64,000 nt of DNA, from positions 1 through 64,000 of the forward strand of contig NZ_SPPC01000003.1 of NCBI RefSeq assembly GCF_004570975.1, read 5' to 3'. How positions within the stretch are numbered: the stretch's first letter is position 1; the number at the start of each line of letters is the position of its first letter. The position numbers and the translations under genes were made by a program. This DNA is from Barnesiella sp. WM24 (GTDB lineage Bacteria > Bacteroidota > Bacteroidia > Bacteroidales > Muribaculaceae). This document shows, piece by piece, positions 48,566 to 60,339 of the stretch. Below the pieces are notes generated by a model. That model had not been told where the DNA came from. It was given only the letters and a program-made list of their open reading frames with translations, and did no database searches.

Positions 48566-49471
48566 TTACATGTTTTTGTTCAGTGACGCGAGGTATTGCT
48601 TAGGCGTATGTCCTGTTTCTTTTTTGAACAGGCGGCTAAGATGCTGCGGGTATTCAAGTCCTAACCTATAGGCTACTTCCGAGACCGACAATCCGGAGGC
48701 AAGCCCGTTTTTTGCTTGCCTGACTATAAATCTCCTGATTGTGGAACTGGCATTCTCTCCTGTGGTTTTCTTTATGAGGTCGCTGAAATAACTCGGTGAC
48801 ATACATAGCTGTTCGGCGCAGTAATTGACCGTAGGGATACCGAGGTTGCCCTGGCGGTTTTCAGCATAATATTCATGCAATAGTGTCTCGAATTTAGAGA
48901 GGATACCTGCATTTGCCAGTTTACGGGTGAGAAACTGGCGGTTGTAAAACCTGTTACAAAATTTTAAAAGCAATGATATATAGCTTACAAGAATTTCATC
49001 CTGAAAACTATCTCTCGGCAAGTTAATCTCCTCTTCCATCTTTTGGAAGATGGATGCAATGGTTTTATGCTCATCGTCATTCATGTGCAGAGCCTCATTT
49101 ATTCGGTAGTCAAAGAATGAGTACCCTTTAATCTCGTTTTGGAGGCTTGTGCCATGTAATAGATCCGGGTGAAACAGCATTGCCCATCCTCCTATTGAAG
49201 TAAGTTCGCCGTTATCTTCTTTGCCTCCTATCTGTCCCGGTGCAACACATATCAACGACCCATTTCTGTAATCATATTTTCCACATCCATACGTAAGGTC
49301 ATTGTCATTATTATCCTGAAGAAATATGCCATATACGCCATAACTGTTCAGACTATGACGTATCGGAGATATGCGGGAATAGTCGATAATACTGACAAGC
49401 GGATGCCGGTCTATGATGCCATGGTATCTACTATAATCTGATGGAGTGTTGACTTTCAGGATTTTGGGCAT
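48566..49471 (-). CDS. AraC-family transcriptional regulator (island regulator 1)
   Basis: The 301-residue protein has an N-terminal sensory domain (about 1-190) and a C-terminal AraC double HTH with VNYCAEQLCMSPSYFSDLIK and VSEVAYRLGLEYPQHLSRLF, then KKETGHTPKQYL. It is a paralogue of the regulator at 54725-55621: both have RHPLV near residue 25, a cupin-like FAPGQ/VAPGQ segment and the LLFHPD/MLFHPD block. It diverges from the plus-strand pair at 49617, in front of which diverged operator-like repeats lie. It presumably controls that pair (inference). Confidence 0.92.
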   Translation of the reverse strand: MPKILKVNTPSDYSRYHGIIDRHPLVSIIDYSRISPIRHSLNSYGVYGIFLQDNNDNDLTYGCGKYDYRNGSLICVAPGQIGGKEDNGELTSIGGWAMLFHPDLLHGTSLQNEIKGYSFFDYRINEALHMNDDEHKTIASIFQKMEEEINLPRDSFQDEILVSYISLLLKFCNRFYNRQFLTRKLANAGILSKFETLLHEYYAENRQGNLGIPTVNYCAEQLCMSPSYFSDLIKKTTGENASSTIRRFIVRQAKNGLASGLSVSEVAYRLGLEYPQHLSRLFKKETGHTPKQYLASLNKNM

Positions 49472-50370: not shown

Positions 50371-51186
50371 ATGGAAAAACTGGAAGTGTTGGATTGCTCA
50401 AACACCTTTATAGCGAGTTATTTCACTGATGACCGTGGCTGTGCTCACTGCAATCGTGAACATACTCTCATATTCATTCATTCGGGCGAACTGGAAATTA
50501 CCGACAATGGGCGTAAGACCATACTTCATCCCGGCGACTGCGCTTTCATGAGGCGTGACAACAGGATGTGGCTTCAGAAGCGAGTCAAAGACGGCAAGTC
50601 CTATCGCTCGGTTGTGATGAAGTTCTCCCGAGATTATCTGAAAGAGTTTTTCCACACTCTTAACCGCAGGGACATTCCGGCTGATGCGCGGCGTGAGAAA
50701 GCGAGTCTTGTGAAATTTCCGGCAAATCGTCCGGATGTGCGAAGTCTCTTTGATTCGCTGATTCCTTACTTCGATGCAGGAGTATCTCCTGATGAGGAGA
50801 TATTAAAAATGAAAATGGCAGAAGGGATGTTTGCCATTCTTAAAACCGATGAAAACCTGTATGCCTTGCTGTTTGATTTTGTCGAGCCGTGGAAAATCGA
50901 CATCGCGGATTTCATGGAGAAAAACTACATGAACGACCTTACGATGGAAGAAATGGCATATTATACGGGCAGAAGTCTTGCCACGTTCAAGCGCGATTTT
51001 AAAAAGATAAGCACTCTGACTCCGCAGAAGTGGCTGATTCGCCGACGGCTTGAAGCGGCACGCGAACTTATACGCAAAGGTGGCAAAAAGGTGTCTGAAA
51101 TATGCTTCGATGTCGGATTCAAAAACCTGTCTCATTTCTCAAAACTATATAAGGAAACCTACGGTATGGCACCGACTTTCACATAA
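50371..51186 (+). CDS. AraC-family transcriptional regulator (island regulator 2, ExsA-like type)
   Basis: This 271-residue protein has a cupin-like N-terminal domain (HTLIFIHSGELEITDNGRKT, HPGDCAFMRRD) and the C-terminal double HTH with MEEMAYYTGRSLATFKRDFK and VSEICFDVGFKNLSHFSKLY. Its N-terminal domain differs from the other two AraC proteins in the island. It is followed by a hairpin (51211-51238) and then the first acyltransferase gene on the same strand. Confidence 0.92.
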   Translation: MEKLEVLDCSNTFIASYFTDDRGCAHCNREHTLIFIHSGELEITDNGRKTILHPGDCAFMRRDNRMWLQKRVKDGKSYRSVVMKFSRDYLKEFFHTLNRRDIPADARREKASLVKFPANRPDVRSLFDSLIPYFDAGVSPDEEILKMKMAEGMFAILKTDENLYALLFDFVEPWKIDIADFMEKNYMNDLTMEEMAYYTGRSLATFKRDFKKISTLTPQKWLIRRRLEAARELIRKGGKKVSEICFDVGFKNLSHFSKLYKETYGMAPTFT

Positions 51187-51210
51187 TGAGCCGCAGGACA
51201 AAATGAATTG

Positions 51211-51240
51211 AGCCACGTAACAAAGCCGTTGCGTGGCTTT
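51211..51240 (+). terminator. Possible terminator after regulator 2
   Basis: AGCCACG (51211-51217) pairs with CGTGGCT (51232-51238), and after one mismatch AAC pairs with GTT; two or three T residues follow. The T-run is short, so an attenuator-like or structural role is also possible. Confidence 0.45.
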
Positions 51241-51245
51241 CGCTG

Positions 51246-51254
51246 TAATTTTGC
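51246..51254 (+). promoter_or_regulatory. -7 box for acyltransferase A operon
   Basis: TAATTTTGC at 51246-51254 is 26 nt before ATG 51281. No GGTAC-type half-sites were found at the positions expected for them, so this promoter may have another regulator. Confidence 0.55.
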
Positions 51255-51280
51255 GATATGAAATCAAAACCATTCCGTAT

Positions 51281-51843
51281 ATGAACGACATATTTGCAAA
51301 AGACCTCAGCGGCAAACTTGTATCGCCCTGCGAACCGGGCTATGAGCTTCTGATAGATGATATATTCTCGACTATGGAGACTGCGCAGGAGCTTGCCTCG
51401 GTCAGTGTTCGCGACCAAATAAGAGTGCATGAACTGATGGAGAAAATCCTCGGCAAACCGCTTGACGACAGTACCACGGTATTGCCTCCGTTTTATATCG
51501 ATTACGGCAAACCGGTGAAAATAGGCAAAGACTGTTTCATCCAGCAGTGTTGCACATTCTTTGGCAGGGGAGGCATAACAATCGGTGACGGAGTGTTTAT
51601 CGGTCCGAAGTGCAATCTCATCACCATCAACCATGACCCGAACCCCGACAATCGCAGTGCTACATATGGACGACCGATTGTCATAGAGGATAAGGTCTGG
51701 ATTGGTATAAATTCCACAATTCTTTCGGGAGTCAGAATCGGCTATGGCTCGATTGTCGGAGCGCAAAGCGTGGTGACTAAGGATGTTCCCCCGATGACAG
51801 TTGTCGCCGGCAATCCGGCAAGAATAATCAAGAAGATAGAATC

Positions 51844-51847
<4 letters not shown>
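51281..51847 (+). CDS. Hexapeptide-repeat O-acetyltransferase A (maltose/galactoside acetyltransferase-like)
   Basis: From ATG 51281 the protein has 188 residues: a helical N-terminus with MNDIFAKDLSGKLVSPCEPG, then left-handed beta-helix turns (VKIGKDCFIQQCCTFFGRGG, ITIGDGVFIGPKCNL, VWIGINSTILSGVRIGYGSI, VVTKDVPPMTVVAGNPAR). The catalytic His is in LITINHDPN. Sugar or small-molecule acetyl transfer from acetyl-CoA in the cytoplasm is expected. The stop overlaps the aldo/keto reductase start (ATGA). A longer frame to 51233 overlaps the -7 box and was rejected. Confidence 0.88.
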
Positions 51848-52998
<1,151 letters not shown>

Positions 52999-53003
52999 TT
53001 ACA

Positions 53004-53039
53004 GCAAATCGGGTATATTTACAGATGATTCGGGTAGGG
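53004..53039 (+). promoter_or_regulatory. AraC-type operator: two half-sites spaced 21 bp
   Basis: GCAAATCGGGTATAT (53004-53018) and ATGATTCGGGTAGGG (53025-53039) share the GGTA core exactly 21 bp apart. The second core (GGT at 53033) is 27 bp upstream of the TA of the -7 box, the same distance as at 55791/55818. They fit the four half-sites at 55689-55797. Which regulator binds is inference. Confidence 0.6.
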
Positions 53040-53059: not shown

Positions 53060-53068
53060 TAATTTTGC
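53060..53068 (+). promoter_or_regulatory. -7 box for the flavodoxin/CMD-cupin pair
   Basis: TAATTTTGC at 53060-53068 is 17 nt before ATG 53086. This supports 53086 over the upstream ATG at 53065, which lies inside the promoter. Confidence 0.6.
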
Positions 53069-53085
53069 ATTATACATTAAATAAA

Positions 53086-53808
53086 ATGAGAATAGTTTTT
53101 ATCGCAATTTTTACACTGCTTGCAATTGTAGGCGTGCAGGCAAAAACACTCGTAGTCTACTATAGCTATACCAATAATGTAGAGCGGATAGTGGATGAAC
53201 TCAGTAAGAAAATAGATGCTGATGTGCTGGAGGTCGAACCGGCGCAAAAAGGTCTTGATTATGCTGCCGACAACTATGCCATCGGCAGCGCGCAGATAGC
53301 TTCCATTCGCAATAATCCCGCTGACGCGGCTTCATATCCTGCGATTGATCCTGTAAATGTGAATCTGTCGGAATATGACTGCATTATCATCGGTGCTCCG
53401 CTTTGGTGGAGTAATATGGCAGCCCCTTTGCAGACATTTCTGTTTCAATATGGCAGGGAGATGGCAGGGAAGAAAATCGGACTCATCGGTTCAAGTGCAA
53501 GCAGTGGCATAAGCGGTGTTGAAGCCGATGCAAAGCGACTGATACCCGGCGGTGATTTCCTCTCCCCGTCACTTTGGATAAGGTCTACCCAGACTTCAAA
53601 TGCCGGCGCTATGCTTGATGACTGGCTGAAGGATATAAATTACGACAACCTGACAGCAGGTGTCGGACATATTTCGACTGACTCTGACGAAAGATATACA
53701 GTATATGTACTCTCCGGCGCAAGGCTTCTTTCTGAAGCCGGCTCTGTTGCAGGATTATCAGCGGGGATATATATCATAAACGGAAAGAAAACAATTATAT
53801 CGAAATGA
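53086..53808 (+). CDS. Exported flavodoxin with T9SS-like C-terminal tail
   Basis: From ATG 53086 the protein has 240 residues. A Sec signal (MRIVFIAIFTLLAIVGVQA) is followed directly by the flavodoxin start KTLVVYYSYTNNVERIVDEL (FMN phosphate loop S-Y-T-N-N). IIIGAPLWWSNMAAPLQTFL is the family's second FMN loop. Flavodoxins are normally cytosolic, so export is unusual. The last residues AGIYIINGKKTIISK resemble the end of type IX secretion tails and match the tail of the protein at 57883. The stop overlaps the next start by 4 bp. Confidence 0.88.
   Translation: MRIVFIAIFTLLAIVGVQAKTLVVYYSYTNNVERIVDELSKKIDADVLEVEPAQKGLDYAADNYAIGSAQIASIRNNPADAASYPAIDPVNVNLSEYDCIIIGAPLWWSNMAAPLQTFLFQYGREMAGKKIGLIGSSASSGISGVEADAKRLIPGGDFLSPSLWIRSTQTSNAGAMLDDWLKDINYDNLTAGVGHISTDSDERYTVYVLSGARLLSEAGSVAGLSAGIYIINGKKTIISK
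53767..53790 (+). repeat. 24-bp DNA repeat encoding the shared C-terminal tail
   Basis: This 24-bp stretch, which encodes the Y-I-I-N-G-K-K tail, is identical to 58432-58455. The identity at DNA level points to recent copying or strong conservation of the tail region. Confidence 0.8.
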
Positions 53809-54704
53809 AAAGAATAACAATAATATTGCTGGCAATATCGGCAATGACATCAAATCTTATTATGGCACAGCAGAAAATAGCTCAACATTCAGCTCGCGAG
53901 ACGAAAGTCGTGCAAACCGCAGGGCGCGACCAGCTTGGCGATTTCGCTCCGGAGTTCGCCCGTCTTAACGACGACATCCTTTTCGGAGAAGTATGGAGCC
54001 GCAATGACCTTCTTTCATTGCGCGACCGCAGTCTTGTGACAATCACATCTCTTATCTCGCAGGGAATTACCGACAGTTCGCTGACCTATCATCTTCAGGA
54101 GGCGAAGAAAAATGGGATAACCCGCACAGAGATTGCCGAGATACTGACTCACGTAGCTTTTTACGCCGGATGGCCGAAGGCATGGGCGGCTTTCCGCCTT
54201 GCAAAATATGTATGGAATGACGGTATCAAGGGTGATGATGCAATGGCAGCCAACGACTCTGTCGCTTCGCAGCGCGAAGAATTCGCGCGTTCGATGATAT
54301 TCCCGATAGGCGAGCCTAACGCGGCTTACGCGAAGTATTTCACAGGCAACAGCTATCTTGCACCGATTTCCGACGCGCAGATTCCGTTTGCCAATGTCAC
54401 GTTTGAGCCTGGCTGTCGCAATAACTGGCATATCCACAAGGCTGACAAGGGCGGGGGACAGATGCTCGTCGGTGTCGCAGGACGAGGATGGTATCAGGAA
54501 GAAGGAAAGCCTGCTGTCGAGATACTCCCGGGCACAGTAATACACATCCCAGCCAACGTCAAGCACTGGCACGGGGCGGCAAAAGACTCATGGTTTGCGC
54601 ATCTCGCATTCAGTGTGCCAGGTGAAAACTCAGAAAATATCTGGCTTGAACCGGTGACCGATGAAGAATATGATGCTCTAAGCAATACTAAGACCCGGCG
54701 TTAA
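53805..54704 (+). CDS. Exported carboxymuconolactone decarboxylase/cupin fusion
   Basis: The 299-residue protein has a signal peptide (ending MAQQ). The first domain (about 45-150) is of the carboxymuconolactone decarboxylase/AhpD type: LRDRSLVTITSLISQGITDS and TEIAEILTHVAFYAGWPKAW with the conserved His. It lacks the C-x-x-C of peroxidase-type AhpD. The C-terminal cupin (about 185-280) has metal-site histidines in NNWHIHKADKGGG and HIPANVKHWHG. Fusions like this are found beside flavodoxin/AKR genes in other bacteria. The exact reaction is unknown. Confidence 0.88.
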   Translation: MKRITIILLAISAMTSNLIMAQQKIAQHSARETKVVQTAGRDQLGDFAPEFARLNDDILFGEVWSRNDLLSLRDRSLVTITSLISQGITDSSLTYHLQEAKKNGITRTEIAEILTHVAFYAGWPKAWAAFRLAKYVWNDGIKGDDAMAANDSVASQREEFARSMIFPIGEPNAAYAKYFTGNSYLAPISDAQIPFANVTFEPGCRNNWHIHKADKGGGQMLVGVAGRGWYQEEGKPAVEILPGTVIHIPANVKHWHGAAKDSWFAHLAFSVPGENSENIWLEPVTDEEYDALSNTKTRR

Positions 54705-54724: not shown

Positions 54725-55621
54725 CTAATTAAGCTGCAGCCGGTATTCTCTTGGAGTGCTTCCGGTTTGTTTTTTAAAGAAGCGGATGAAGTGCTGCGGG
54801 TGCTGGAAGCCAAGCAGCTCGGCAATCTGTTTGGTACTTAGTGCGGGATTCAATAACGAGTTTTTAGCGTAGTTTATCATTTTCAGCTGTATATATTCCT
54901 GTGCGGTCTTGCCCGTTTCCTGCTTTACAAGATCGCCGAAATAGTTGGATGAAAGGCATATCTTGTCGGCGAAATACTTTACTGTGGGTATCCCGTCGGT
55001 CACTCCGCGTCCACTGTCAAGATATTCGTCAATAAGCTGCTCGAATTTGCCGAGGGCGTTATGATTAAGTTCTTCACGAGTGACAAACTGACGCTCATAG
55101 AAGCGCATGCAGTAATTGAGCATTACCTCTATGTTGGATATTATAAGAGACTTGGAAAACTTGTCGATGGGATGTTGCAGCTCACGGGCTATCTTGTCCA
55201 TATAGTCCTGCAAGATCAGGCGTTCTTCTGTAGACAGGTGCAACGCTTCGTTTGAGGCGTAGGAAAAAAATGTGTATTGCTTGATTTTCTGAGCTAAAGG
55301 AGTCCGCAGAAGAAAATCGGGATGAAACAGCAGCCCGATCGCTTCCGGTGCCGGCCCGTCCTCAAAACGATGCACTCCTACCGTCTGACCGGGAGCGAAA
55401 CTGACTACCGTTTCGTCATCAAAGTCATACGATGTCTTTCCATAGTTTATCTTGCACCCGGTGGTCTTTTTAATGAAAAGCGAATAGAACCCGAAGTGCA
55501 TGCAATGGGTCGGCTGCTCCACGGTATCGTCAAAATGAACTATACCGACAAGCGGATGTCGCGTCTCAAAACCGAAATAGCGGTTGTATTTTTCAATAGT
55601 GTCTGCCTCGTATATTTCCAT
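54725..55621 (-). CDS. AraC-family transcriptional regulator (island regulator 3)
   Basis: From ATG 55621 (a further in-frame ATG at 55657 lies before it) the protein has 298 residues. The start MEIYEADTIEKYNRYFGFET with RHPLVGIVHFDD is the counterpart of the regulator at 48566. The DNA-binding part has VKYFADKICLSSNYFGDLVK and TKQIAELLGFQHPQHFIRFF. Operator repeats lie 68 bp upstream, between it and the divergent acyltransferase operon, so it is the best candidate to bind them and to control itself and that operon (inference). Confidence 0.93.
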   Translation of the reverse strand: MEIYEADTIEKYNRYFGFETRHPLVGIVHFDDTVEQPTHCMHFGFYSLFIKKTTGCKINYGKTSYDFDDETVVSFAPGQTVGVHRFEDGPAPEAIGLLFHPDFLLRTPLAQKIKQYTFFSYASNEALHLSTEERLILQDYMDKIARELQHPIDKFSKSLIISNIEVMLNYCMRFYERQFVTREELNHNALGKFEQLIDEYLDSGRGVTDGIPTVKYFADKICLSSNYFGDLVKQETGKTAQEYIQLKMINYAKNSLLNPALSTKQIAELLGFQHPQHFIRFFKKQTGSTPREYRLQLN

Positions 55622-55688
55622 ATAAGATTTCTTTTTTGCAAAGATAGCTATAATCAACTGTCGCGCAATGCGGAAAACTTACCTATAT

Positions 55689-55797
55689 GTAATCGGGGTA
55701 CATAATTCCGTAAGATTGGTACATTTTGCGAATCAGTGATTTAAGGCAGATGTGTAATTCCGTAATCGAGGTACATTCATGCGTAATATTGGTTATT
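55689..55797 (+). promoter_or_regulatory. AraC-type operator: four half-sites as two 21-bp-spaced pairs
   Basis: GTAATCGGGGTACAT (55689-55703), GTAAGATTGGTACAT (55710-55724), GTAATCGAGGTACAT (55762-55776) and GTAATATTGGTTATT (55783-55797) are direct repeats. Within each pair the start-to-start distance is 21 bp (two helical turns), and the pairs are 73 bp apart (seven turns). The last half-site ends 20 bp before the -7 box, covering the -33 region, as for an activator. This is strong direct sequence evidence for AraC dimer binding. Confidence 0.8.
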
Positions 55798-55817: not shown

Positions 55818-55826
55818 TAATTTTGC
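55818..55826 (+). promoter_or_regulatory. -7 box for acyltransferase B operon
   Basis: TAATTTTGC at 55818-55826 is 26 nt before ATG 55853 and follows the four half-sites in activator geometry. Confidence 0.65.
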
Positions 55827-56417: not shown

Positions 56418-57896
56418 ATGAAAATCAAAATTCTTTCAATGATAATGTCTATGCTTTCTCTGACAGCGTGTGCATCATGCACCACAACGGATGATGACCC
56501 GATAACTGAAAATCCGGTTCCTGATTCGACACCCGGCACTGAACCCGGCAAAAATGGCAGCGTACTGGTAGCATACTTCTCATGTACGGGCACCACGGAA
56601 GGTATTGCCGAGGGTATAGCGGACATAACCGGGGCATCCACATTCAGAATCGAAGCGGAAGAGCCTTACACTGCCGCCGACCTCGACTATAACAGCGACT
56701 GCCGCGCCAACAGGGAGCAGAACAATCCTAAGGCTCGTCCGGCAATAAAAAGTATGCCTGACGGTCTTGACCGATACGATGTGGTTTTCCTCGGTTATCC
56801 GATATGGTGGGGAGAAGCTCCGCGTATAATCAGCACCTTCCTTGAGAGCGGAGATTTCAAAGGGAAAACGATAGTACCGTTCTGCACCTCACACTCCAGC
56901 GGTCTTGGGAGCAGCGACCGCAATCTGCATTCTCTCGTCCCGGATGCTGTCTGGATTCCCGGACGACGCTTTGTGGGAAACACTGCCAAAACAGGGCTTG
57001 AAAAGTGGATTTCAGGACTTGATATAAAATTTGACACAGATTCTGACTCAGATATGGATTACTCTAAATTTCCTCTTTCAGAGGGTAAAAACGGTCAGGC
57101 ACCCACAATCCGCCTCAGCAGCGGATATGATATGCCGATAGTTGGTCTCGGCACATACAGCCTTACAGGCGACGTGTGCGTGAACTCCGTGAAGTCGGCT
57201 ATCTCTCTCGGCTTCCGAAAGATTGACACCGCGCACATGTACGGCAACGAGGTAGAGGTGGGTCGTGGAGTACGTGAATCGGGTGTGCCGCGTGAAGAAA
57301 TCTTCGTGGCGACCAAACTCTACCCCAACCAGTATGGCAACCCCGAAGCCGCAATAGATGAGTGTCTTCGCAAACTCGACCTCGGCTACGTTGACCTGAT
57401 GCTTCTTCATCATCCCGGCACTAATGACGTGAAAGCCTACAAGGCGATGGAACGATATGTCAGGGAGGGAAAGATCCGCTCCATAGGCGTGTCATGCTAC
57501 TATATCAGGGAAATCGACGAGTTCATCCGTCAGGTCGATATAAAGCCTGTGCTTGTACAGAACGAGGTTCATCCCTATTATCAGGACACTGATGTCGTTC
57601 CCCATATCCAGAATCTCGGAATAGCGGTCGAGGCGTGGTATCCGTTAGGGGGCAGAGGGCATCAGAAGGAATTGCTTAACGACCCGGTACTGACCGAAAT
57701 CGCCGGGCGGCACGGCAAATCAGTCGCACAGGTCATTATGCGCTGGGACTTGCAGCGTGGTGTTATAGTGATTCCCGGATCAAGCAACCCCGACCACATG
57801 AAAGAAAACATCTCAATATTTGACTTCGAATTGACCGAAGATGAGATGACCGCGATTGCCGCACTTAACCGCAACGAGAAACATGACTGGTATTGA
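56418..57896 (+). CDS. Lipoprotein fusion: flavodoxin domain plus aldo/keto reductase
   Basis: The 492-residue protein has a lipobox SLTAC (C18) and a linker. A flavodoxin domain (about 48-205) follows with GSVLVAYFSCTGTTEGIAEG, NNPKARPAIKSMPDG and VVFLGYPIWWGEAPRIISTF. The AKR domain (about 228-492) has DMPIVGLGTYSLTG, D270 and Y275 (FRKIDTAHMYGNE), K300 (VATKLYP) and H331 (LLHHPG), a complete tetrad, and the cofactor end VIPGSSNPDHMKENI. It joins an FMN protein and an NADPH-type reductase in one anchored polypeptide. How reducing power reaches it outside the cytoplasm is not clear. Confidence 0.9.
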   Translation: MKIKILSMIMSMLSLTACASCTTTDDDPITENPVPDSTPGTEPGKNGSVLVAYFSCTGTTEGIAEGIADITGASTFRIEAEEPYTAADLDYNSDCRANREQNNPKARPAIKSMPDGLDRYDVVFLGYPIWWGEAPRIISTFLESGDFKGKTIVPFCTSHSSGLGSSDRNLHSLVPDAVWIPGRRFVGNTAKTGLEKWISGLDIKFDTDSDSDMDYSKFPLSEGKNGQAPTIRLSSGYDMPIVGLGTYSLTGDVCVNSVKSAISLGFRKIDTAHMYGNEVEVGRGVRESGVPREEIFVATKLYPNQYGNPEAAIDECLRKLDLGYVDLMLLHHPGTNDVKAYKAMERYVREGKIRSIGVSCYYIREIDEFIRQVDIKPVLVQNEVHPYYQDTDVVPHIQNLGIAVEAWYPLGGRGHQKELLNDPVLTEIAGRHGKSVAQVIMRWDLQRGVIVIPGSSNPDHMKENISIFDFELTEDEMTAIAALNRNEKHDWY

Positions 57897-58477: not shown

Positions 58478-59650
58478 ATGTTAGGAAATTTCATATATGC
58501 CAACCCCACTAAGCTATTCTTTGGTGACGAGGCGCAGAAAAATCTCGCAAAAGCTCTCATACCTTTCGGGAAAAAGGTATTACTCACTTATGGCGGAGGA
58601 TCTATCAAGCGCAATGGAGTCTATGATGATGTCATCTCCGCGCTCAAATCCGTTGGTAAAGAAGTGGTGGAACTACCCGGCGTAATGCCTAATCCTACGG
58701 TAGAAAAATTGAATGAGGGCATTAAGGTTGCGCGTGAGAACAACGTGGATTTCATTCTTGCCGTAGGCGGAGGATCGACAATCGACTATGCCAAAGCGGT
58801 CAGCGTTTCGGCGTGGTATGACGGCGACGCATGGCAGCGATTCTGGGTAAGACAGGAAGACCCAACACCCGGTGAAAGAATAATCCCGGTAGGTGCTGTT
58901 CTGACAATGGCAGGTACAGGCTCGGAAATGAACGGAGGCTCGGTGATCACCAACCACGCCGCCAAGATGAAAATCGGCAAGGTGTTTGGTGAAGATGTGA
59001 TGCCGAAGTTTGCGATACTCAATCCTAAATATACTTTCAGTCTGCCACAACGCCAGTTGGTAGCCGGAATATTTGACACCATGAGCCACATTATGGAACA
59101 GTACTTCTCCGGCAATGACGACAGTACATCCGATTATCTCGCCGAAGGACTTATGCGCTCTGTAATCGCATCGAGCCGCGTGGCTGTTAAAAATCCGGAG
59201 GATTATGAAGCCCGCTCCAACCTCATGTGGTCGGCCACATGGGCACTCAACACCCTCATCGGCGAGGGCAAACCACAGGACTGGATGGTACACATGATAG
59301 GTCAGGCTATAGGTGCATATACTGATGCCACTCACGGTATGACTCTTTCCGGTGTATCAGTGGCATACTACCGCCACATCATGAGATACGGACTGGACCG
59401 CTTCGTGCGTTTTGCAGAAGTCGTATGGGGCGTTCTTCCTGAAGGAAAGACTGATGAGCAGATTGCTTCCGAGGGTATTGAGGCTCTTGAATCATGGATA
59501 AAGGAAATAGGCGCAGCTTCCGATATATCATCGCTCGGTGTCACACCTGACATGCTCGACGGAATTGCTGATTCCACCATCATTCTCACAGGCGGCTATA
59601 AGACACTTGACCATGCTGAGATTGTTGACATACTTCGCAATAGCCTCTGA
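58478..59650 (+). CDS. Iron-dependent alcohol/aldehyde dehydrogenase (YqhD/BDH-like)
   Basis: This 390-residue enzyme has the nucleotide-binding motif AVGGGSTIDYAKA (GGGS 97-100) and metal ligands D200, H204 (FDTMSHIMEQYFS), H272 (MVHMIGQ) and H286 (YTDATHGMTL), with the spacing of E. coli YqhD. YqhD-type enzymes reduce short aldehydes with NADPH. No signal peptide is seen, so this is the cytosolic member of the operon. Its presence beside an AraC regulator and AKRs recalls yqhC-yqhD-dkgA of E. coli. Confidence 0.94.
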   Translation: MLGNFIYANPTKLFFGDEAQKNLAKALIPFGKKVLLTYGGGSIKRNGVYDDVISALKSVGKEVVELPGVMPNPTVEKLNEGIKVARENNVDFILAVGGGSTIDYAKAVSVSAWYDGDAWQRFWVRQEDPTPGERIIPVGAVLTMAGTGSEMNGGSVITNHAAKMKIGKVFGEDVMPKFAILNPKYTFSLPQRQLVAGIFDTMSHIMEQYFSGNDDSTSDYLAEGLMRSVIASSRVAVKNPEDYEARSNLMWSATWALNTLIGEGKPQDWMVHMIGQAIGAYTDATHGMTLSGVSVAYYRHIMRYGLDRFVRFAEVVWGVLPEGKTDEQIASEGIEALESWIKEIGAASDISSLGVTPDMLDGIADSTIILTGGYKTLDHAEIVDILRNSL

Positions 59651-59661
59651 TCATAAACCGC

Positions 59662-60339
59662 ATGAACAGACGCGATGCGATTAAACGGATGGGGGTACTG
59701 ACGGCTGGTGCTGTTATTAGTTCAACAGGACTGGCGGGTGCCTCCGGTCTAATTAGTGAGGATAATAGCTCGATGAAGATACTTGCGATAAATGGCAGCT
59801 CCAGAAAACAGGGAAACACCGGTGACATGATTGATATTGTCCTATCGGAATTGTCAGGTCAGGGACACCAAGTAGACAAAATAGATCTCGCCGGACACAC
59901 TATAAATCCGTGTAAAGCATGTTTTGCCTGTGCCGGAAAGCGAAACTGCGTGTTTTCCGACGACATATTCCGAGATGTTTATGAACGGATGACCGATGCG
60001 GACGTAATAATAATGGGATCTCCGACTTATTCGGCAGATGTCTCGTCGACATTGAAGGCGGTAATTGAGCGAGCAAGTGTTGTCAGCGACACCAATCCCG
60101 GAATGTTCAGCCACAAAATTGGTGCAGGAATAGCGGTAGGACGCCGTGCCGGAGCGATGAACGTGCTCGACACCATCAACCGTTTCTTCCTGAACAAAGA
60201 AATGTTTATTGTCGGCTCTACCTATTGGAATATCGCATACGGCAGATTACCCGGCGAGGCACTGAAAGATGCCGAAGGCGTGGAAACTATGCGCAACCTC
60301 GGCAAAAACATTTCGTGGCTCCTTTCCAGAATATCATAG
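59662..60339 (+). CDS. Tat-signal NADPH-dependent FMN reductase/flavodoxin-like protein
   Basis: The 225-residue protein begins MNRRDAIKRMGVLTAGAV, a twin-arginine signal, and from residue 38 has MKILAINGSSRKQGNTGDMI, the FMN loop of the NADPH-dependent FMN reductase family. The Cys-rich segment NPCKACFACAGKRNC (about 83-97) is that of the iron-sulfur/flavoprotein subgroup, and MGSPTYSADVSSTLKAVIER is the second FMN loop. Tat export fits its cofactor load. It is the last gene of the operon. Confidence 0.9.
   Translation: MNRRDAIKRMGVLTAGAVISSTGLAGASGLISEDNSSMKILAINGSSRKQGNTGDMIDIVLSELSGQGHQVDKIDLAGHTINPCKACFACAGKRNCVFSDDIFRDVYERMTDADVIIMGSPTYSADVSSTLKAVIERASVVSDTNPGMFSHKIGAGIAVGRRAGAMNVLDTINRFFLNKEMFIVGSTYWNIAYGRLPGEALKDAEGVETMRNLGKNISWLLSRIS

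Follow-up and report, generated by a model that had tools for sequence, protein, structure and literature searches.

At araBAD/araC, the AraC protein of Escherichia coli is served by half-sites 21 bp apart, the proximal one of which lies over the -35 element. Bacteroides also has AraC-type regulators with direct repeats of the same 21-bp period, as described for RhaR (PMC3870299) and hybrid two-component systems (PMC3878776). For MarA, SoxS and RamA, class II sites lie in forward orientation over the -35 element and class I sites in reverse orientation upstream, and class II promoters have a poor -35 (PMC10268841). For SusR-like regulators, two boxes on the same face of the DNA are spaced by 67 or 77 bp (PMC3878776), and E. 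coli yqhC, which encodes an AraC-family activator, appears to influence its own expression (PMC8262776). The promoters concerned in Bacteroides have published -7 and -33 elements, TAnnTTTG and TTTG, respectively (PMC7366714).

The locus described here lies in a stretch of 64,000 nucleotides that was analysed as a whole (the window), where two pairs of direct repeats stand between an AraC-type regulator gene and a divergent operon. The two pairs are quite probably operators for dimers of the adjacent regulator, one in a class II position at the operon promoter and the other, in reversed orientation, in a class I-type position at the promoter of the regulator itself. The half-sites, read directly from the sequence, the putative operator pairs and the regulator are as follows.

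55689-55703, + strand: half-site 1, GTAATCGGGGTACAT
55710-55724, + strand: half-site 2, GTAAGATTGGTACAT
55762-55776, + strand: half-site 3, GTAATCGAGGTACAT
55783-55797, + strand: half-site 4, GTAATATTGGTTATT
55686-55724, + strand: distal operator pair, half-sites 55689-55703 and 55710-55724 with a 3-bp flank
55759-55797, + strand: proximal operator pair, half-sites 55762-55776 and 55783-55797, in a class II position for the operon promoter
54725-55621, - strand: AraC/XylS-family regulator with a cupin-like N-terminal domain and two helix-turn-helix motifs (Pfam HTH_18 8.4e-21, HTH_AraC 3e-14)

The earlier note on this DNA had placed four direct repeats at 55689, 55710, 55762 and 55783, all on one face of the DNA, and these positions agree with the sequence, as do the spacings it gave (21, 52 and 21 bp between successive starts, 73 bp between pair starts) and the shared face. 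The conserved unit, however, begins 3 bases before the reported start and reads TC[C/A]GTAAT-N3-GGTA, the last half-site (55783) being the weakest of the four at 13.1 bits. Going by AraC-family biology, each 15- to 18-bp half-site would bind one monomer, and two half-sites, two helical turns apart, would hold a dimer.

A lone half-site with up to two mismatches is found five times against 4.36 expected, which is not significant by itself and could be taken to favour chance or non-regulatory repeats; the signal is therefore carried by the pairing. The paired pattern matches twice in the window, where 100 shuffles gave 0.00, and these two are the sole matches in the 3,494,878 bp of the genome at up to three mismatches, so that the occurrence of the same repeats at random in unrelated places, which the earlier note had named as grounds for dropping the idea, was looked for genome-wide and did not occur. 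Position, spacing and sequence of the pairs are moreover kept across Bacteroidales and Flavobacteriaceae. A chance origin has a negligible probability and was rejected on the empty shuffles, the uniqueness of the pairs in the genome and the outstanding 21-bp spacing among regulator homologues.

This spacing was established in homologues of the regulator taken from relatives and from named Bacteroidota genomes, which gave 106 upstream regions, read away from the regulator. When GTAAT-N3-GGTA pairs were scored in these regions at each spacing from 8 to 44 bp, a spacing of 21 bp gave 38 loci with at least 15 of 18 matches and any other spacing nine loci at most. A weight matrix was built from 51 loci, leaving out the window and its closest relative (G001, in which the fetched region aligns with the window from 54725 onward and does not show the gene cluster to the left, where the pair at 53004 lies), and its consensus for each half is again TC[C/A]GTAAT-N3-GGTA. 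It scores the distal pair at 31.3 bits and the proximal pair at 29.5 bits, the best of 30 shuffled windows reaching 13.0. A forward pair of at least 12 bits is present in 63 of the 106 regions, with 0.1 expected after shuffling, and absent at that threshold from the other 43. As the first consensus was drawn from the window and the matrix loci were picked at 21-bp spacing, the matrix counts are biased towards the motif; the spacing comparison, the distances to -7 boxes and the helical steps played no part in choosing sites. The control region is of an ordinary kind, and its exact layout is found again in many Bacteroidota of gut and marine origin.

Two side observations concern these genomes. 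The locus L057, from a record titled 'Bacillota bacterium', has a Bacteroidota-type regulator at 50% identity, and the assembly is probably mislabelled or mis-binned. The full operator-plus-promoter pattern has four or five matches, with none for a reversed control, in each of two relatives, G057 (L122, L141, L148, L150) and G035 (L125, L142, L149, L151), which may have larger regulons.

On the operon side, the proximal pair faces the promoter and genes listed below, transcription starts having been deduced from -7 boxes.

55818-55825, + strand: -7 box of the operon promoter, TAATTTTG, which fits the consensus TAnnTTTG (PMC7366714)
55853-56413, + strand: first operon gene, maltose/galactoside O-acetyltransferase-like hexapeptide acyltransferase (Pfam Hexapep; NCBIfam matches below cut-off)
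56418-57896, + strand: flavodoxin fused to a DkgA-like aldo/keto reductase (Pfam Flavodoxin_4 6.4e-48, Aldo_ket_red 1.2e-46)
58478-59650, + strand: YqhD-like iron-containing alcohol/aldehyde dehydrogenase, probably of the same operon (Pfam Fe-ADH 2.1e-44; NCBIfam PRK15138 3.1e-84, below cut-off)
59662-60339, + strand: NADPH-dependent FMN reductase-like protein, probably the last operon gene (NCBIfam SsuE 5.4e-6, below cut-off)

The proximal half of the proximal pair begins 35 bp before the operon -7 box and overlaps the -33 region, as the earlier note had proposed. A start 34 or 35 bp before TAnnTTTG is found in 39 loci, against approximately 0.2 expected, and this rule, together with the overlap of the -33/-35 element, bears out the comparison with AraC-class activator sites for the proximal pair. 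TTG is absent from -33 in all 39 operon promoters, which is what class II sites would predict, and the putative activator is thus taken to stand in for the -33 contact at the operon promoter. While the class II geometry is observed, activation is predicted from it: the 55762/55783 dimer, in forward orientation with its proximal half on the -33 region, would recruit RNA polymerase (class II activation). The proximal pair most likely switches on the acyltransferase-flavodoxin-aldo/keto reductase operon, which is of a detoxification type. The content of this operon suggests reactive aldehydes, quinones or other electrophiles as the inducer, but this is a weak guess because homologues of the regulator adjoin varied genes; a literature search for the regulator-flavodoxin-reductase neighbourhood in Bacteroides found nothing.

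Among candidates for the binding protein, the regulator encoded at 54725-55621 ranks first, since its homologues have the same motif in the same place, and it is predicted to bind all the pairs. Its C-terminal domain holds two helix-turn-helix motifs, as evidenced by Pfam and by structural matches of the DNA-binding domain, and the predicted model also resembles the DNA-binding domain of AraC. The N-terminal domain has no Pfam match, and its predicted fold is cupin-like, matching the regulatory domains of RhaR and AraC with TMt values of about 0.6-0.75. The first recognition helix starts with residue N226, which covaries with the second position of GTAAT: N goes with T, and G with C or another base. 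Of 16,279 tests this one ranked first (p=1e-8), but the tree gives only 4 independent changes, of which 3-4 agree in direction and 0 run the other way; this is not significant (p 0.25), and the covariation is suggestive. It is very improbable that the pairs are bound by either of the window's other AraC proteins, encoded at 48566-49471 and 50371-51186. The protein at 48566-49471 is 38% identical to the neighbouring regulator, which would lend itself to such a reading; the motif, however, tracks homologues of the 54725-55621 protein and no pair was found at L027-L032, the six most distant homologues fetched (34-39% identical), and the repeats that lie between the gene at 50371-51186 and acyltransferase A are of an unlike kind (TGAGCC..., at 51187 and 51209).

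These unlike repeats form a direct repeat of their own (TGAGCCGCAGGACAAA and TGAGCCACGTAACAAA, 51187-51224, 22-bp spacing), which is separated by 37 bp from a -7 box, TAATTTTG, at 51246 and lies upstream of acyltransferase A (51269-51847). It probably serves as operator for the AraC protein encoded at 50371-51186. Elsewhere in the same genome, a paralogous regulator, 47% identical (L153, G000:C35:38000-40500, position 1001, minus strand), has its own pair of the GCAAT/TTAAT type, scoring 28 bits and with a -7 box at 34 bp. Cross-talk between this paralogue and the regulator of the window is possible.

A weaker third pair within the window was also detected.

53001-53039, + strand: third putative operator pair, half-sites 53004 and 53025; at 13.4 bits the third best in the window (null maximum 13.0)
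53060-53067, + strand: -7 box of the third pair, TAATTTTG, exactly 35 bp from the pair

This pair is one of two matches in its own genome to the operator-plus-promoter pattern, and it precedes a flavodoxin gene (ATG at 53086) and a cupin-CMD gene (53805-54704). Given the pair and its -7 box at 35 bp, these two genes probably make up a second operon targeted by the regulator. The listed TTG start of the flavodoxin open reading frame, at 53065, falls inside the -7 box; a more plausible start is the in-frame ATG at 53086.

The distal pair is related to a different promoter, that of the regulator.

55639-55646, - strand: -7 box of the regulator promoter, TATCTTTG (CAAAGATA on the + strand), at a distance to the nearest operator pair that is conserved in homologues

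This box lies 42 bp from the distal pair, which is in reverse orientation with respect to the regulator promoter, and the distance is common to homologues: 38 loci have the nearest pair 41 or 42 bp from the regulator -7 box, and the separation is 31 or 32 bp in eight loci, 20 bp in three and 52 bp in one. Successive values are one helical turn apart (phase concentration R=0.95 at 10.5 bp). From 31 bp upwards, the pair stands upstream of the regulator's -33 region, while in the three loci at 20 bp it would overlap it. The regulator promoter thus has the features of a class I-type arrangement, i.e., reverse orientation, a position upstream of -33 and helical register. Among reverse-oriented pairs, eight of nine lie 34 or 35 bp before a regulator-side -7 box, so that in those loci the class II site belongs to the regulator-side promoter.

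The distal pair is most likely the control site of the regulator gene itself, where the 55689/55710 dimer, reversed, upstream of the -33 region and in helical register, would bring about class I-type autoregulation. This autoregulation is the most likely mode, and activation rather than repression is the sign that the geometry points to. Negative autoregulation is common among divergent AraC-type pairs, and repression of its own promoter by the regulator, as by AraC at araC, would fit the same conserved distances, with the sites at 20 bp (three loci) overlapping the -33 region. Repression is nevertheless unlikely, if not remotely so, as a pair at 41 or 42 bp is upstream of -33, which makes simple occlusion unlikely, as the conservation of helical steps suggests contact with polymerase, and as loci with reversed pairs show class II activation geometry on the regulator side.

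On this reading each pair has a promoter of its own, and the question of why there are two pairs can be approached from the relatives. Most of these have a single pair for both promoters, and the roles are split over two pairs in the window and nine other loci. In two-pair loci, the distance between pairs is 73 bp in five (L003, L004, L006, L034 and L110), 61 or 62 bp in two, 98 bp in two and 141 bp in one. The earlier note had suggested that the second pair could allow looping; this was not upheld, since it is the distance from each pair to its own promoter that is fixed, and that from pair to pair ranges from 61 to 141 bp across species. A fixed phase between sites, as for a looping operator of the araO2 type, was not found among the distances of 61, 62, 73, 98 and 141 bp.

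A DNA loop between the pairs, or one higher-order complex of two dimers 73 bp apart, would accord with the 73-bp spacing being seven helical turns and recurring in five loci, even at L110, where the regulator is just 49% identical, and with 61 and 62 bp being six turns. The distances of 98 and 141 bp (L068, L075, L053), on the other hand, are out of phase at 9.3 and 13.4 turns, a single pair is present in most relatives, and the place of each pair is already accounted for by its own promoter. A loop of 73 bp is also well under the persistence length of DNA. With the pair-to-pair distance varying and two of its values out of phase, neither a loop nor a fixed two-dimer complex is required, and we regard this explanation as improbable, preferring separate operators, one for each promoter. 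The locus L110, from an uncultured Phocaeicola, combines this 49% regulator with the same 73-bp two-pair layout and a divergent acyltransferase 63% identical to that of the window, from which it appears that operon and control region may travel together.

More broadly, these loci may represent a large Bacteroidota AraC subfamily with one positional rule, a proposition that we find evenly balanced: a single dimer site would act as a class II activator for the divergent operon and as a reversed class I activator of the regulator's own gene, with helical-step spacing and TAnnTTTG promoters, and would be split into two pairs, one per promoter, in several lineages. Few one-component regulators of gut Bacteroidota have known sites, and for one widespread AraC subfamily the analysis offers a specific rule on operators and promoters that can be tested. 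With this rule (two copies of TC[C/A]GTAAT-N3-GGTA spaced by 21 bp and lying 34 or 35 bp ahead of TAnnTTTG), the targets of many unstudied regulators become predictable from sequence, and AraC activation with the Bacteroidota polymerase becomes testable. A literature search on class I/II AraC activation in Bacteroidetes returned only unrelated papers, and within the literature searched the double rule, by which the operon has a forward class II site and the regulator a reverse class I site, seems undescribed.

Compared with known systems, SusR-like regulators come close in spacing, 67 or 77 bp against 73 bp, but they have single boxes and a large non-AraC protein; they were rejected as a model because in the window every box consists of a 21-bp pair and the longer spacing is variable. 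The E. coli YqhC/yqhD-dkgA system shares an AraC-family activator and targets of the YqhD-type dehydrogenase and DkgA-type reductase kinds. This resemblance is one of neighbourhood, however, as both enzymes of the window are under NCBIfam cut-offs and homologues of the regulator adjoin many gene types. E. coli AraC is likewise a divergent regulator with half-sites 21 bp apart, the proximal one over -35, and its N-terminal and DNA-binding domains match the regulator model; the window, however, gave no evidence of a looping site like araO2, and the pair-to-pair distance is not conserved.

The operators of Bacteroides hybrid two-component systems and RhaR are similar in having two half-sites on one face, an AraC-type DNA-binding domain and Bacteroidota promoters, but they serve sugar and polysaccharide genes and have other sequences, whereas the regulator of the window is a one-component AraC protein beside redox and detoxification genes; its consensus is TC[C/A]GTAAT-N3-GGTA, and a second pair is associated with the promoter of the regulator gene. 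The positional logic is that of MarA, SoxS and RamA, with sites forward over -35 at one promoter class and reverse upstream at the other, and a poor class II -35. Those regulators, however, are monomers that use one site with sigma-70, while here it is a pair of half-sites that faces Bacteroidota promoters of the TAnnTTTG type, and a single such pair can be enough for the two divergent ones.
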